Positions 23,156 to 32,052 of a stretch of DNA of 33,821 nucleotides are shown here, one piece after another. Made by a program: the position numbers and the translations under genes. Origin of the DNA: Methanomassiliicoccaceae archaeon (GTDB lineage Archaea > Thermoplasmatota > Thermoplasmata > Methanomassiliicoccales > Methanomethylophilaceae); the NCBI GenBank assembly GCA_016282555.1, contig JAEEKU010000154.1:1-33821 (forward strand), read 5' to 3'. Position 1 is the first letter of the stretch; each line of letters starts with the position of its first letter. The notes under the pieces were generated by a model. It did no database searches. It saw nothing but the letters and a program-made list of their open reading frames with translations, and had not been told where the DNA came from.

Positions 23156-23307
23156 AGTCTGATCCTCCGAATCATATCTATGCGGCGAGGCTGAGGTTCC
23201 GATGTAACGGTCCTATTTAATACGTTTGAATACCCCGGCACCGGCTCCCGCAAAGCGGAAGGCCTGACGCAAATTAATTGAATGACGTAGTCGATCCTCC
23301 GGCCGGC

Positions 23308-24678
23308 ATGAAAATACTGAACAAAGTCGTATGGTACGCGGGATTCGTCGTCTCGGTCTTTCCGGTCTGCTGGGTTTTCTTCTACCTGTGGGAGGACGAG
23401 GATATATGGATGGAGATTCCCCTCGCCATAGGCATAATCGGTACCCTCTCCATAGCGGCCGCGGGAAAGGTCGGCAAAATCAATCTCGCGCCTCCCGATC
23501 CGGACACGTATCCGGTTCCGTTCATAGGCCTCAGCTCCATGGGTGGAAGCCAGATCTACGCCTTGTTCTCCTCCGGACTGATCATGCTGGCGATGTTCAT
23601 CGCCTTCGGACGGTCCCCGGTCGGAATTGCCGTGGCGCTGATCACGGTCCCCATCGGATTCGTCATGCTCCTTATGGCCGCTTTCGTGGTGCCTTATCTG
23701 GCCGCCGTGGACGGGATATTCCTGCTGTCGGTTTTCCTGGCTAAGATCATAGACAGATACGAGTACGACGTGAATACGCGCAGGTTCGTCTGCCCCGGAT
23801 GCGGAAGGAAATTCTACCGCCCGTCCTACGAGGTCGAGGGGGAACTCATCGACGGCCTGTGCCCTACCGACAAGGGCGTTTTCCACAGGGAGATGAGATC
23901 ATCCAAAATACCCTGCTTCGGTTCCAAAAGCGGAAGGAAAAGACTTCCGCAGTGCTGTCCGGCATGCAGAGAACCCGTTAATACCGAGGAGGGAAAACCT
24001 TTCGTTCTGTCCGTGGCGGGCGCGCCCTCCTCCGGAAAGACCAGTTTTATTCTCTCGGCCGCCGGAAAGGCGATTTCATCCTCCGGAAACGGAAACGCTT
24101 CTTCCGCGGAATTCTACTTCAAAAAAGACGCATCGGTACTCTCGGATTACAGGGCGGGCCGCTGCGATCCGACTCCCGTATCGTTCCTGTCTCCGCGCAT
24201 CGTGTGCTTCGAACCCAAGCATTTTCCCACGAAAAGACTGGTGTACATGTGCGACGTGAGCGGAAAATTCTTCTCCGGCGGCGTCGAGACCGATCTCCAG
24301 CCCCAGTACGTATACAACGACGCCATAGTGTTCATGATGGATCCGTTCTGCTCCGATCCCGCCGGAACGGCTTTCGGAGCGTACATAGGATTTATGGAAA
24401 AATACCGCCTCCTTAACAGGCTGGATGCTTCCAAGCAGATAACCGTCCCGTTCGCATTGGTCGTCTCTCATTCGGACAAGCCGGGTCCTTTCAGCGGAAT
24501 CAGCGGAGCGGAACTCAAAGAAAAGCTGTCCGAAGAGGGTTATTTCACCCTGGTGAACATGATTGAAAAAGACTTTTCCTCCGTATCCTTCTTCTCCTGC
24601 GACGCTTCGAAAGAAGACGGATCCGCGAGCGCCGTGATGAAGCATCTGTGCGGAAAGGAGTTCGGGCAGTTCTTCTGA
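23308..24678 (+). CDS. Membrane-anchored zinc-ribbon P-loop GTPase-like protein
   Basis: Several N-terminal hydrophobic segments, zinc ribbons CPGCGRKF and CCPACREP, Walker A GAPSSGKTS (24019-24045), DVSG (DxxG-like), VVSHSDKPG (NKxD-like position). First ATG is at 23308; the TTG start at 23278 is less likely. Confidence 0.75.
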   Translation: MKILNKVVWYAGFVVSVFPVCWVFFYLWEDEDIWMEIPLAIGIIGTLSIAAAGKVGKINLAPPDPDTYPVPFIGLSSMGGSQIYALFSSGLIMLAMFIAFGRSPVGIAVALITVPIGFVMLLMAAFVVPYLAAVDGIFLLSVFLAKIIDRYEYDVNTRRFVCPGCGRKFYRPSYEVEGELIDGLCPTDKGVFHREMRSSKIPCFGSKSGRKRLPQCCPACREPVNTEEGKPFVLSVAGAPSSGKTSFILSAAGKAISSSGNGNASSAEFYFKKDASVLSDYRAGRCDPTPVSFLSPRIVCFEPKHFPTKRLVYMCDVSGKFFSGGVETDLQPQYVYNDAIVFMMDPFCSDPAGTAFGAYIGFMEKYRLLNRLDASKQITVPFALVVSHSDKPGPFSGISGAELKEKLSEEGYFTLVNMIEKDFSSVSFFSCDASKEDGSASAVMKHLCGKEFGQFF

Positions 24679-24715: not shown

Positions 24716-26287
24716 TCATCCGAGAATGTATTTTCTGGCCTTGCGGATCTGATCGTCGTTCAGCAGACCCTTGGCGGCGAGAGTGTGGCTCTTCGTTATG
24801 TCCCTGAAGGTACAGGTGCATATAATATCTGCTTTGTCGTCGGCTTCGATGGATACCATTACAGGTTCTCCGGCCTTGCTGTCCGAGGGAATTTCCACGA
24901 CGAAAGATCCCACTTCCTCGCATTCCTCTTCGGAGACTTCCCTGTTCTCCTCGGCCTCGTCGAAATCGCTCTGGAAGATTACCACTTCCAAAGCTGTCTG
25001 TTTGTCTTTGTGGACGTAATATTCGCCCTCGTCTTTGATGGGAAGAGCGCGGTTTCTGAATATTATGTTGGAGATCAGATACTTCTGCTTCGCCTCGTCC
25101 CAGACCTTGACGCCCATCGTATGGGAGAGAACCTTCTCGATCTCGATGTTTCCCACCGTGGGAGCGAACTTGGACAGTTTTCCGTCGACCGGTTTCTCTC
25201 CGTTCCCGGTATCCACTATCACGTCGCGCGTGTTCTGATAGATCGCCGCGCCGGTCGCTATAGCCAGATCCGGATCGTGGATGTGTATCTTTGCTTCGCA
25301 CGAGGGATATGCCGCGATTATTCCCGCCTTCACCTGAGGCATGCGGGTGGATCCGCCTACAAGAACGATGTCGTCTATGCCGTCCATAGTCAGATTCGCG
25401 CTGGCCAGAGCGCTGTCGACCTTCATGATGGTCGCCTGAAGCTCCCCGGCGGTCGCCGCCTCGAACTCCTCGCGGGATACGGTGTATTTCAGAGTGGACG
25501 TTCCGAAGCGGACCGCGCCCTTGACTTCTTTCAGGGAGCTCAGGGAGATCTTCTTTCCCTCGGCCTGGGTCTTCAGGTCGGTCATGGTGTCCTCGTTGGC
25601 TTCCAGCTCTTCCATGGTTACGTCGCTGCCCTCGCACAGCTTTTCTTTTATGATCTGGATGAGCGCTGCGTCCCAGTCCTTTCCTCCGAGGTTGCAGTCC
25701 CCGTCCGTAGCCAGGACTTTGAACCTGTTGTCGCTGACCCTCATTATGGTGACGTCGAAGGTTCCTCCGCCGAGATCGTATACCAGTATATTCCTCTCGC
25801 CGGAATTCTTGAGCCCGTAAGATATTGCCGCAGCGGTGGGCTCCTCTATTATGTTGACCTCTTCGAATCCGGCTATTATTCCGGCCTGGCGGGTCGCCTC
25901 CCTCTCTTTGGGCCCGAAATACGCGGGACAGGTTATTGTCGCGCTTTTGAGCTCCGCGTCGGGATATTTCTCGAGAAAATCATCGACCAGTTTGCGGATG
26001 ATTCTCGCCGAAAGCTCTATAGGCCCTTATTCGACGCCCCCGATGTTTATGCGCCAGGTGTCGGCCTCGCTCATGTTCCTCTTCACGGCCTCGACGACCA
26101 CCTCGGCGAAACCCGCCTGATCCTTGGCGATTTCACCGACGCAGAACTCTCCGTTGTCGTACGAGATAACCGACGGGGTGGTATCGTGCTCCTGATTGTT
26201 CTTCACCACGATCGGGGTTCCGGTCGCGTTCATGATCGAAAGACAGGAATACGTGGTCCCCAGGTCTATTCCGATATCGTATATCAT
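24716..26287 (-). pseudogene. Hsp70/DnaK paralog (lidless, about 523 codons) interrupted by a single in-frame TAA at 26027-26029; may be a true nonsense mutation, recoding or an assembly error
   Basis: N-part [19 protein letters not shown]...[22 protein letters not shown]...NIGGVE, then TAA, then in the same frame GPIELSARIIRKLVDDF...ATITCPAYFGPKEREATRQAGIIAGFEEVNIIEEPTAAAISYGLKNSGERNILVYDLGGGTFDVTIMRV... to ...IRKARKYILG. 26027 and 25742 differ by a multiple of 3. Confidence 0.85.
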
Positions 26288-26470: not shown

Positions 26471-27676
26471 ATGGCCTTCATCTGTCCGTATTGTTTTGAA
26501 TCCATCAAAAAGATAGACGACGTTCATTACATGTGTACCGATGTGGGGCACAACAGCAGCTCCATTCTGGAGGACGATCCGGAGTTCGCCAGATACCGCG
26601 GCCTGCCGTCCTATACCCGCACGTCCCACGTAGTCAGGACGTTCAACAAAAGGGATCCCAAATGCGACGTGTGCCAGGCCCGCCTGACCAGAATGCTGTG
26701 CCCGGTATGCCACAACACCCTGCCCTACGGAATCGACAAATGGGATCTGAACTTCTTCGCCGTTCTGGGCCCCCGTGCGGTCGGGAAATCACATTACATC
26801 GGAGTGCTGATCAAAGTCCTCGAGAAAATGAGCAAGGAATTCGAATGGTCTATAAGCCCCATAGATTCCAAGGTTAACGATCTTTACAACAAAAAATACG
26901 CCAACTCCCTGTTCAGCAAGAAGAAGGGCATAGATCCGACCCGCCGCGTCACTCTAGATATATACGAGCCTCTGGCGTATACCATAAAATCGTTCAACGG
27001 AAGGGTCGCCGGGCTGTTCTTCGTGGATACTGCGGGAGAAGATGTGTCCGCTGACGATTACGCTTATACCATCCAGAAGTACATCTCGAACTCCTCCGGG
27101 ATCATCTATCTGGTCGATCCCCTTCAGTTCGAGTACGTCAAAGACAGGATCGGAGCGAGAGACAGCAACCAGGCCAACTATACGAACACCCTGTCGGTGA
27201 TAAGCCAGGTTTACCGCTCCGGAAGAGGAATGAGCGTCAACAAAAAAATCGACATACCTCTGGCCGTGGTCGTGACCAAATGCGACGTCCTTCTGAGGGA
27301 GCCGACAAACGCGACCGAGGAGGAGGTTTATCTCGGCTCGGATTCAGCGATCAACAATCCCCGCAAATACGGAGTTTTCGACGACGAGAACAGCCGGCAG
27401 ATCAGCGCGGAGATGGAAGCTTATCTGGACAGGGTGAGCGGAGGAACCTTCCCCATGGCCGTAAAGAACGATTTCAAAGAATACAGATACTTCGCGGTTT
27501 CCGCGCTGGGGGCGGAACCGGATGCCAGCGGGATGCTGAAAACCGTCTCCCCCATAAGAGTGGAGGACCCGATGCTGTGGCTGATGAAGAAGGAAACTGA
27601 CGTTATACGTCCCCCGAATACCCAGGAATCGGTAAAAAAGACCATGGGATTTCTGAAGAGGCGGTTGAATGTCTGA
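26471..27676 (+). CDS. Zinc-ribbon TRAFAC-type GTPase, resembling the 'double-GTPase' (DO-GTPase2) family
   Basis: CPYCFESI, CDVCQARLTRMLCPVCHNTLP, Walker A GPRAVGKSHYIGVLI (26768-26791), FFVDTAGED (DxxG), LAVVVTKCD (NKxD-like). Confidence 0.8.
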   Translation: MAFICPYCFESIKKIDDVHYMCTDVGHNSSSILEDDPEFARYRGLPSYTRTSHVVRTFNKRDPKCDVCQARLTRMLCPVCHNTLPYGIDKWDLNFFAVLGPRAVGKSHYIGVLIKVLEKMSKEFEWSISPIDSKVNDLYNKKYANSLFSKKKGIDPTRRVTLDIYEPLAYTIKSFNGRVAGLFFVDTAGEDVSADDYAYTIQKYISNSSGIIYLVDPLQFEYVKDRIGARDSNQANYTNTLSVISQVYRSGRGMSVNKKIDIPLAVVVTKCDVLLREPTNATEEEVYLGSDSAINNPRKYGVFDDENSRQISAEMEAYLDRVSGGTFPMAVKNDFKEYRYFAVSALGAEPDASGMLKTVSPIRVEDPMLWLMKKETDVIRPPNTQESVKKTMGFLKRRLNV

Positions 27677-30017
27677 GCAGCTCGTTTACACATTGTGCAG
27701 AAGCGGAGTCGGGGTCGTAGCGGGGTACGGGGTGTATTCCGCGTCGGAGGGACTGTCCGCTTCCGACAGAACCGAGATAGAGTCGAAATACAGCATGTAC
27801 GTCGCGCCGGAGTCCGTTCCGGTGTCCGGGAAGGACGATCCGAACATACGCAGAATGCCGGTCAGCCTCGGATTCGTGAAATTAGGATCGGGATCGGAGT
27901 GCATCACGCACCAGATTTACACCGGCGCCGATTACGACAATCCGTCCAGAATGGGAAATTACATATCCCATTCCGTGGTGGATCCGTGCTTCGGATTTTA
28001 TCCGGCGGAAGCCTGCGGATTTCCCGGATTCTGCACGGACATGCATTACGATATGATGGACTGCACCGCCGCGCCTCCGGTTTAGCCTTCCGTAGAAATT
28101 GTTCCGCGGCCGATGCTGGAGAAGATTTCGGCGTTCGTGAGGGGAAAGGACAAAGCATTCTTCCGCGAGCTCGCCTACAGAGTGCTGGACGCCATGGATG
28201 ACAAACTTAAAAAAGTATATATCCGCGAAAAATACGACAATTTCAGCTGGATTGCCGCCGTCACCATGCTTTTCCCGAGAGAGATATCCAAACAGATTCC
28301 CTTCATAACGTATACCGGCACTCCGGACCGCTGCTTCCACAAACTCGCGGGAATATTCGACGAGGATCCTTCTCCCATGGTCTCTATGTTCACGCTTTCG
28401 GCGGATAATTTCAGAGAATCAGAAAGAGACGATCTCTTCGATTCGTACGTGGACAACGCTTACACGGAATCGTCGGACAGAGAGCGGTTCTTCGCGTTCC
28501 TTTCCAGAACGGGCTGGAACAGCATAGGAAAGGATATCATAAACATGTATCACCTGTTCTCGGTCTGCGAGAAGGGATTCGTTCCTTCCCCCGGGGACAG
28601 CCGCAAATCCTTCGCAGCGCTGAAATCCGTGATCCGCAGCGCGACGGATTCCGATATCGTCTCCGTTTACTCGGTGATGAAAAACGTCATGGATGCCGAG
28701 GCGGCGGATTTCTTCGGAAACGAAGCAGTTCCGGCAATGAAGGACAAGGAAGCGGCCGATCGCATCCTGGCCGAAGTCACCGCGTTCTCGCTGGAGCCTT
28801 CCCGCAGTCTGAAAGACGTCCGCTCCGTAATATCGTCGTACGAGGATCACTCCGACGAAGTCCGGAAGTGCATCAGCCTGAAATCCTTCGATCTGCTGGA
28901 CTATCCCGCGGGAAGATATTACTGCCTCAGGGAGTACGTTGCTTCCGGAGATCCGGAACTGGCCGGCGCCCTGCAGGGATTCGATCTGGACAGCCTTTCG
29001 GCGGAGGCGGCGGCCGCGGACGGGAAGACGTGCGCCGAAGCTCTGAAGAACAGTTTCCCTCTGAAACCGTCCTCCAAAGAGATGCTCAAAGAAACTGTGA
29101 TCGGATCCGCCGGAACGCTTCCCGGGGACACTCTGATCTCCCTGTTCGGACTTGCGATAAAAGAGGACAGGGCTTTCGCTATGCGCCTCTCCGAAGCGGT
29201 TTCGGACGGCCGGCCGGATCTGGCTGAGAAATTCATCATAAAATCCTCCGAAGCCGGCGATGCGGAGCTGGCTTCCTTCATATCGGACGCGTACGTCTCC
29301 CGGTACGTAAGCGGCGGAAAGGACCTCCTTCCCGCGATAACTTTCATGAAAGAGAGGGGCCCCTCCGGAAAGGAGCATCTGGCCCGTCTGATCCGGGCGC
29401 TGGCGCAGTCGATCGACTTCTCCGGATTCGGCCCCTTCCCCGCCGCCAAAGCGGCGACGGAACTGATTCCGGAAACGGAACCGGAGTCCGATGACGCCGC
29501 GCGCATACGCATGCTCGTGAACGCTGACCGCATCCGCAGAGAAGGCAGATCCGATCTGGATCTGGATCTCTCCATGCTGGACGACGCGGCCGCGAAATCT
29601 TATATCAACCTGTGTCTGGGGGCCCCGATGCCCGCGAAACACCGGGGGCAATGGATATCCGACAGGCTGGAATGCCTTAAATCGCGTCCGGACGAGGCGG
29701 CCGACCGCATGTGCACCAGCGTCATCACCACGATGTACGCCGCGTTCGACGCGGAAACGGTCGCTGCGTACATTATAGCGGCCAAAAACATCGGGGCGTC
29801 GGACGAGACCGTCTACAAGCGCCTGAAACTGGATCCGAAACAGCGCGCGAAAGTCAGGAAGCATCTGGGGAGCGGCTTCGAGGAGAGCTTCGACGCGTAT
29901 TTCGGAAAAGAGGAGGAGCCATCCGGATCCCTTAAGGATAAACTGACGGGAAAGCAGAAGGATTCCGAGGGGAAACGGTCCGCAAAGAGCATTCTCGGCG
30001 GGCTGTTCAGGAGATGA
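27669..30017 (+). CDS. GAP1-like GTPase-associated protein, one gene with an in-frame TAG at 28083-28085 (candidate pyrrolysine/readthrough codon)
   Basis: 27669-28085 and 28113-30017 lie in the same frame with no other stop between them. N-part (LVYTLCRSGVGVVAGYGVYSASEGLS...RMGNYISHSVV) looks like a GAP1 N-terminal domain. C-part (FSWIAAVTMLFPREISKQIPFITYTGTPDR...) looks like a GAP1 middle domain. No SD before the ATG at 28113. Gene overlaps the upstream GTPase by 8 bp (ATGTCTGA). Confidence 0.72.
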
Positions 30018-30021
30018 TCGG

Positions 30022-32052
30022 ATGAAAGTAGGAATAGATCTGGGAACCACTTACTCCGCAGTCGCCTACGTGGACGGCACCGGCCAGCCCGTGATAATCA
30101 AAAACGAGTTCGGCGACGAGACCACTCCGTCGATCATAGCGTTCACCGGCGGAGAGATCAGCGTCGGCAGAGAGGCCAGAGAGCTTCAGGCCGCCGGAAT
30201 AAGCACCGTAGTTTCTTCGTTCAAAAGAAACATGGGCGATCCGGACTTCTCCTTCTCCGCCGGCGGCAGGAGCTACGACGCGACCGAACTCTCGGCGATA
30301 CTTCTAAGACATATGAAGGAAGCCGCCGAAGCCCGCACCGGAGAAAAAATAGAATCGTGCGTGATCTCCGTTCCGGCGTATTTCAACGACCTCCAGAGGT
30401 CCGCGACCCTGGAAGCCGGACGCATGGCCGGCCTCAGCGTGGAGATGCTGGTTCACGAGCCTACGGCGGCCTCCGTATGCTACGGAATGAAGAACGCGGG
30501 GGACTGCACCCTGATGACTTTCGATCTCGGCGGCGGAACGTTCGACATAACCATTCTCCGCATCGTGGACGGATCGATAGAAGTGGTCGGCACACTCGGG
30601 GATCCCAATCTCGGAGGGAAAGACTGGGACGAAGTCGTCAAGGAGATTCTGGCGGAGCAGTTCTTCGACGAGTTCTCGGTGGATCTGCTCAGCGACGACG
30701 AGTTCATGACCAGGTTCTCCGTGGAAGCGGAAAAAATCAAAAAAATGCTATCTTACAATTCCCCTATCCGCGTCCCTCTCAGATTCGGAGGGAAAAGCAT
30801 GGTAGCCGTCGTTACCCGGGAAGACTTCGAATTCAGATCGTCCGGGCTCGTGGATTCCACCATAACCATGTGCGAGCGCCTCCTTTCGGAACAGAACATG
30901 TCGTGGAGCGACCTGTCCGACATCATACTGGTGGGAGGATCCACCCGCCTTCCCGCTATAAGGGAGGCTCTCAGGAAGGCGTCCGGAGTCAGACTGATCA
31001 TAAACGAGGATACCGACACCGCCGTCGCCAAAGGGGCCGCACTGCTGGCGACATCCGTGGAAGGACGCATCTCCAGACGCGCGCCCGGCGCCGGAGGAGA
31101 TACCCGCATAATGAAAGTGAGCGACGCCATAGCCCACAGCCTGGGGGCTCTGGCCGAGAATCCGGAGGGGACGATGTACGTCAACGACATAATCATCCGC
31201 CGCGGATCGAAGATACCGGTTACGAAAAAGCGCACGTTCGAGATCAAACCCCGGAACCTCACCGAAAAAATAGACATTTACACGATGCAGGGCGAGAGCA
31301 AAGCCCCCCTGGAATGCACTGTCCTGAAGATGGTTACCGCGGAGGGAATAAAAAACTCCGGAACCGGAGCCAGAATCGATATAGAATACTCCTATGACCG
31401 GAGCGGGATGGTAAACGTGCAGGCATATCAGGACGGAGAACCCCTGAGAATGATCAAAGGCGACGTTCCGGAGGACGTTTCCTGGATGGGGAAACCGATC
31501 GAAAGGAAAAAACAGGATCAGATACCGGTTTACATCATCCTGTCCATGGATCTCTCCGGAAGCATGAGCGGATCTCCGAAAAGAAAGGCCATAGCCGCCG
31601 CCCACAAATTCGTCAGAATGCTTCCGGAAGCCAGATACGCGGTGATAGCGTACGCGGACAGAACCAAGGTCCTCTGCAGCGACTGCCCCTCCTCCAAAGT
31701 CGGAACCTTCATAGACGCGCTGGGAACGACGAACGTCGGAGGATGCAACGGCGCCCATCCGTTCAAAGACATTCTGCGCCTCAATCCGGGATCCAAATAC
31801 AAAGTGTTCGAGATAACGCTCACCGACGGGCTCTGGTCCTGCTGCGACGACGCCGAGGAAACGGCTAAAGCGTGCATGAACGAGGGAATCGAATGCATCG
31901 CAGTGGGATTCGGAAGCGCGGATCACGCTTTTCTTAAGAGAATATCCTCTATGGACGAGGGAGCCCTGATGAGCAGCGTCGACGGCCTGGAATCCACATT
32001 CTCGACCATCGCCTCCTCCATCAGCTCCGGCGGATCGAGATTCATAAGGTGA
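30022..32052 (+). CDS. Hsp70 (DnaK)-von Willebrand factor A fusion protein
   Basis: [55 protein letters not shown], then C-terminal YIILSMDLSGSMSGSPKRKAIAAAHKFV with MIDAS DxSxS (31549-31569). Confidence 0.93.
   Translation: MKVGIDLGTTYSAVAYVDGTGQPVIIKNEFGDETTPSIIAFTGGEISVGREARELQAAGISTVVSSFKRNMGDPDFSFSAGGRSYDATELSAILLRHMKEAAEARTGEKIESCVISVPAYFNDLQRSATLEAGRMAGLSVEMLVHEPTAASVCYGMKNAGDCTLMTFDLGGGTFDITILRIVDGSIEVVGTLGDPNLGGKDWDEVVKEILAEQFFDEFSVDLLSDDEFMTRFSVEAEKIKKMLSYNSPIRVPLRFGGKSMVAVVTREDFEFRSSGLVDSTITMCERLLSEQNMSWSDLSDIILVGGSTRLPAIREALRKASGVRLIINEDTDTAVAKGAALLATSVEGRISRRAPGAGGDTRIMKVSDAIAHSLGALAENPEGTMYVNDIIIRRGSKIPVTKKRTFEIKPRNLTEKIDIYTMQGESKAPLECTVLKMVTAEGIKNSGTGARIDIEYSYDRSGMVNVQAYQDGEPLRMIKGDVPEDVSWMGKPIERKKQDQIPVYIILSMDLSGSMSGSPKRKAIAAAHKFVRMLPEARYAVIAYADRTKVLCSDCPSSKVGTFIDALGTTNVGGCNGAHPFKDILRLNPGSKYKVFEITLTDGLWSCCDDAEETAKACMNEGIECIAVGFGSADHAFLKRISSMDEGALMSSVDGLESTFSTIASSISSGGSRFIR

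Follow-up and report, generated by a model that had tools for sequence, protein, structure and literature searches.

The reading frame at positions 27669-30017 (+ strand) of the window, i.e. of the whole analysed stretch of 33,821 nucleotides, very likely constitutes one full-length gene for GTPase-associated protein 1 (GAP1, N2 type), with an in-frame TAG that would be decoded as pyrrolysine by tRNA-Pyl. Judging from the sequence, residue 139 is most likely pyrrolysine. We base this reading on the orthologs, which are single proteins with either Leu or TAG at the site, and on the pyrrolysine biosynthesis genes and Pyl-type mtmB genes found in the genome. These observations support the initial annotation, which had proposed full-length synthesis by amber decoding. 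Full-length GAP1 synthesis would then depend on the pyrrolysine supply of the host, a rumen-type Methanomethylophilaceae archaeon.

The GAP1 frame

With TAG taken as sense, the gene comprises 782 codons. The initial annotation had placed two open reading frames (27669-28085 and 28113-30017) in one frame, and the TAG at 28083-28085 (+ strand, codon 139) is indeed the sole stop before the TGA at 30015-30017. Re-reading the sequence also bore out the nine open codons directly 3' of the TAG (PSVEIVPRP, 28086-28112, + strand) and the ATG that follows them. These nine codons align to the close orthologs without gaps. The TAG lies in the linker separating GAP1-N2 from GAP1-M. The 138 codons upstream of it (27669-28082, + strand) make up the GAP1-N2 part, which Pfam matched at residues 1-129 (PF20013, E 1.3e-18 with the N part alone). 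The part from the ATG onwards (28113-30017, + strand) contains GAP1-M at residues 154-227 (PF20014, E 2.6e-9) and a C-terminal helical part. Both families scored above the cut-off. Beyond residue 227 Pfam gave no domain and no GAP1-C match, and this region is helical in the structure model. The domain resemblance suggested earlier is borne out for GAP1-N2 and GAP1-M.

A six-frame codon test showed that both flanks of the TAG code frame-specifically. These coding flanks, the uninterrupted frames of the orthologs and a TAG at the identical codon in a second species lift the feature above chance. In the structure model residue 139 lies in a coil of low confidence that links the N domain to the first GAP1-M helix, and a long side chain would be expected to do no harm at this place; the mean pLDDT of the model is 73.5 across the whole protein and the N domain is poorly predicted.

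Codon 139 in related genomes

A GAP1 match was obtained in only six of the 30 genus relatives. The identity to the GAP1 of our genome (G000) was 58% for G026, 54% for G001 and 53% for G017; G002 carries a further close ortholog, which is fragmented, and the proteins of G029 and G025 are distant (28-29%). GAP1 is a single frame in G026, G001, G029 and G025, and also in G017 if its TAG is included. An ortholog alignment had been suggested together with the initial annotation. It gives TAG at codon 139 in one species, G017, and Leu in three (CTG in G026, CTT in G001 and G002), with gap-free flanks and no two-gene arrangement. Across the orthologs the linker has kept its length and part of its sequence. 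The lack of a TAG in three of the four close orthologs counts against the amber reading. The earlier statement that GAP1 is normally one polypeptide agrees with the single-frame orthologs and with the GAP1-N2 systems, where a single GAP1 protein combines three domains (Kaur et al. 2020, PMC7159879).

The named genomes among the alignment matches were Candidatus Methanomethylophilaceae from sheep rumen, sheep omasum and water buffalo rumen, the Thermoplasmata assembly SIG7 and one Methanomassiliicoccaceae assembly. SIG7 corresponds to G017. It was assembled independently of our genome and belongs to a different species, so that the TAG can hardly be a sequencing error. Trees of GAP1 and of Kae1 prefer G026 to our genome as the partner of G017. 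This preference is not significant, and both a loss of one old TAG in G026 and two separate gains of the TAG would be compatible with the trees. A TAG at one codon in two species makes it possible to test concretely whether pyrrolysines of this kind are neutral or have been kept.

Pyrrolysine machinery of the host

The assembly of our genome is fragmented (187 contigs) and 82% complete. Searching for the pyl genes, as had been proposed, was successful in part: we found pylB and pylD as well as pylC, the latter in two pieces on two contig ends, whereas the searches of this 82%-complete assembly yielded neither pylS nor pylT. The genome also has two mtmB genes, each containing a single TAG, which served as control genes since their pyrrolysine is obligatory. 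The contig carrying pylB stops three bases short of the start codon of this gene. In G017 the order on one strand is pylT, pylS, a gap the size of pylB, pylC and pylD. Across the 30 genus relatives a PylS match was present in 29 (27 of them above the cut-off) and pylT in 28; the two relatives lacking pylT are G002, which is 61% complete, and G003, in which pylS is cut by a contig end. As nearly all members of the genus have both genes, and as our pylB contig breaks on the side where relatives carry pylT and pylS, both genes probably lie in the assembly gap at this contig end. A model of the PylS N-terminal domain was uninformative as evidence for pylS because the domain is missing from this order. 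To our knowledge, PylS lacks it across the Methanomassiliicoccales.

Stop codon usage and further in-frame TAGs

Stop codons were counted across ∼230 kb of our genome and 340 kb of G017 for coding ORFs of at least 80 codons, with coding calls made by the six-frame codon test. A hexamer score for amber frames was dropped as too noisy, since overlapping shadow frames scored well too. Among the 119 coding ORFs in our genome we counted 92 ending in TGA, 21 in TAA and 6 in TAG, i.e. TAG is rare as a terminator. A coding in-frame extension followed the stop for four of the six TAGs compared to nine of the 113 TAA and TGA codons (Fisher p 0.001). The corresponding numbers for G017 were 4/7 for TAG and 9/171 for the other stops (p 0.0005). 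Some TAGs, such as codon 721 of L063, resemble real stops, and thus TAG is not purely a sense codon in our genome.

Two further in-frame TAGs were followed across the genus. The AlaX-like gene of the alanyl-tRNA editing type (L054:2330-3505, G000:C30:2330-3505) was found in all 31 genus genomes and shows TAG in our genome at a position where each of the 29 relatives read has CAG (Gln). The TPR-repeat gene (L053:12445-13386, G000:C20:12445-13386) carries a private TAG at a site that varies among the relatives. As both are private to our genome, the GAP1 TAG is the only shared one of the three sites followed. Standard gene calling splits such amber genes in Methanomethylophilaceae, as seen for GAP1, the AlaX-like gene and the TPR gene.

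Other in-frame TAGs came to our attention during the scan. Those in an AAA_14/DUF4143 ATPase gene (L063:1179-2366, − strand, G000:C120) and an HTH regulator gene (L069:4613-5422, − strand, G000:C180) have coding sequence on both sides. Two relatives have further ones, G025 within an AAA-type gene close to its GAP1 cluster (L045:4062-5444) and G017 within a gene of the integrase-core (rve) type (L038:1733-2944, − strand).

Proposed decoding and alternative explanations

We propose that tRNA-Pyl would read the GAP1 TAG and yield full-length GAP1 with pyrrolysine at codon 139, and that part of the product would stop at the TAG and leave some truncated GAP1-N2. Such a mixture would be expected by comparison with Methanosarcina acetivorans, where an introduced amber codon was decoded as pyrrolysine with an apparent efficiency of 20-30% and otherwise caused termination (PMC2933860), and where the physically observed pyrrolysine of Thg1 is described as dispensable (PMC2933860 citing Heinemann 2009). 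Given the tolerant linker site and the Leu of the relatives, the GAP1 pyrrolysine is probably not catalytic and would be a neutral replacement that ties GAP1 synthesis to amber decoding. The best reading of the comparison is that the GAP1 amber arose by largely neutral evolution, as for Thg1 of M. acetivorans. We consider it improbable that the TAG is instead a kept switch, by which high pyrrolysine levels (methylamine metabolism) would give full-length GAP1 and low levels would release only GAP1-N2. If it were, the conflict system discussed below would be set by the pyrrolysine supply and the TAG in two species would reflect selection, not drift.

If the TAG were a real stop, GAP1-N2 and GAP1-M/C would be made as separate proteins, and synthesis of GAP1-M/C would begin at 28113, either by reinitiation or by a start of its own. 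The 27 bases between TAG and ATG are short enough to permit termination-reinitiation, and GAP1-N2 and GAP1-M are separable domains. The candidate start itself speaks against this arrangement. The initial annotation had noted that the ATG at 28113 is without a recognisable Shine-Dalgarno sequence, and the pairing of the upstream bases with the 16S tail is indeed only −1.1 kcal/mol, compared to −7.5 kcal/mol for the start at 27669 and −9.5 kcal/mol for the next gene at 30022. Even the internal in-frame ATGs pair more strongly (median −3.3 kcal/mol). The candidate start is also not constant between the two TAG species (codon 149 in our genome, codon 150 in G017) and is absent in G001. In addition, the linker conservation and the description of GAP1 as one three-domain protein (PMC7159879) do not fit two proteins, and we regard this arrangement as very unlikely.

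The fragmentation of our genome and a private TAA in the adjacent Hsp70 gene would be in line with a nonsense-interrupted pseudogene or an assembly error. However, the identical TAG is present in an independently assembled genome whose GAP1 is only 53% identical, and the ∼640 codons 3' of it are intact and coding in both species. A frame that stays intact despite this divergence is not that of a dead gene, and so a pseudogene or error is very hard to credit. A similarly slim chance remains for a suppressor or near-cognate tRNA that would insert Gln, Lys, Tyr or another standard residue. The failure to find pylS and pylT in our assembly and the Gln at the AlaX-like site in the relatives would suit such a tRNA, whereas pylBCD and the amber mtmB genes in the genome as well as the almost universal presence of pylT and pylS in the genus argue for pyrrolysine. 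Decoding as pyrrolysine is consistent with what was found on each point on which the initial annotation could have failed: pylBCD are present, the orthologs are single-frame and the TAG recurs; pylS and pylT are missing from an incomplete assembly.

The gene cluster around GAP1

Directly 5' of GAP1 lies a gene for a zinc-ribbon double-GTPase (DO-GTPase, 26471-27676, + strand), which overlaps the GAP1 start by 8 bases. The protein scored just under the Pfam cut-off and its G017 ortholog just over the cut-off of DO-GTPase2. By synteny a DO-GTPase gene also precedes GAP1 in G017, G026, G001, G002, G025 and G029. Further upstream we find a second GTPase-like protein (23278-24678, + strand), assigned by a weak DO-GTPase2 match, by synteny and by a Walker-type motif and membrane segments on reading the sequence, and the Hsp70 gene of the cluster (24716-26287, − strand). 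An Hsp70 with a C-terminal vWA domain (30022-32052, + strand, assigned by Pfam scan and by synteny) follows directly 3' of GAP1. The close orthologs keep this set of second GTPase, Hsp70, zinc-ribbon GTPase, GAP1 and Hsp70-vWA. Between G017 and G026 Kae1 is 96% identical and the membrane GTPase of the cluster only 57%, so the cluster is fast-evolving or exchanged.

The cluster Hsp70 (24716-26287) was rejected as a second amber gene since its single in-frame stop (26027-26029, codon 87) is TAA. This TAA is private, with Tyr (TAC) in four relatives, and is possibly a nonsense change, a strain variant or an assembly error. It is beyond the reach of pyrrolysine decoding and hence indicates that some private stops in the assembly are nonsense changes or errors.

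GAP1 has been proposed as the partner of double-GTPases in conflict systems (PMC7159879). By analogy, GAP1 probably acts together with the adjacent double-GTPase and the Hsp70 proteins as a switch in such a system, directed against invaders. As in the GAP1-N2 double-GTPase/HSP70 systems of that study, the zinc-ribbon GTPase lies directly 5' of GAP1 and is accompanied by Hsp70 genes and by another GTPase-like protein that has membrane segments. In contrast to them, the host is an archaeon and the vWA domain is fused to Hsp70; they also differ in that the Pfam scans of cluster genes showed no FNIII-repeat protein, no GAP1-C match was obtained and the PADLOC defence scan found nothing. With GAP1, the set of amber genes in methanogens from gut and rumen gains a protein of a probable conflict system.

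Comparison with known amber genes

A report in Science in 2025 is said to describe a full archaeal amber-to-pyrrolysine code. The initial annotation stressed that GAP1 would be a non-methyltransferase Pyl protein. As a novelty this was overstated, as accounts of the order already list 16 in-frame amber genes besides the methyltransferases in Ca. Methanomethylophilus alvus (PMC4153887) and 46, methyltransferase genes included, in ISO4-H5 (PMC5011839). GAP1 resembles the genes described there in several respects: the hosts are Methanomassiliicoccales from gut or rumen with pyl genes, each gene has a single TAG and TAG-free homologs, and TAG rarely terminates genes (1.6% of stops in Ca. M. alvus, as given in PMC4153887). 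The amber genes of the two accounts include the defence genes cas1 and cas3. GAP1 is absent from the table for Ca. M. alvus and does not occur among those ISO4-H5 genes that PMC5011839 names in its text, where 17 hypothetical proteins are unnamed. As in Thg1 of M. acetivorans, an amber codon would have been gained in a non-methyltransferase gene and tolerated. The Thg1 pyrrolysine, as cited in PMC2933860, was physically observed and occurs in one species only, whereas a pyrrolysine in GAP1 is predicted from the sequence and the codon occurs in two. GAP1 is thus a further non-methyltransferase amber gene, and its distinctive point is the shared codon: its TAG is common to two species, and as far as the accounts in PMC4153887 and PMC5011839 extend, none is reported as shared for a non-methyltransferase gene.
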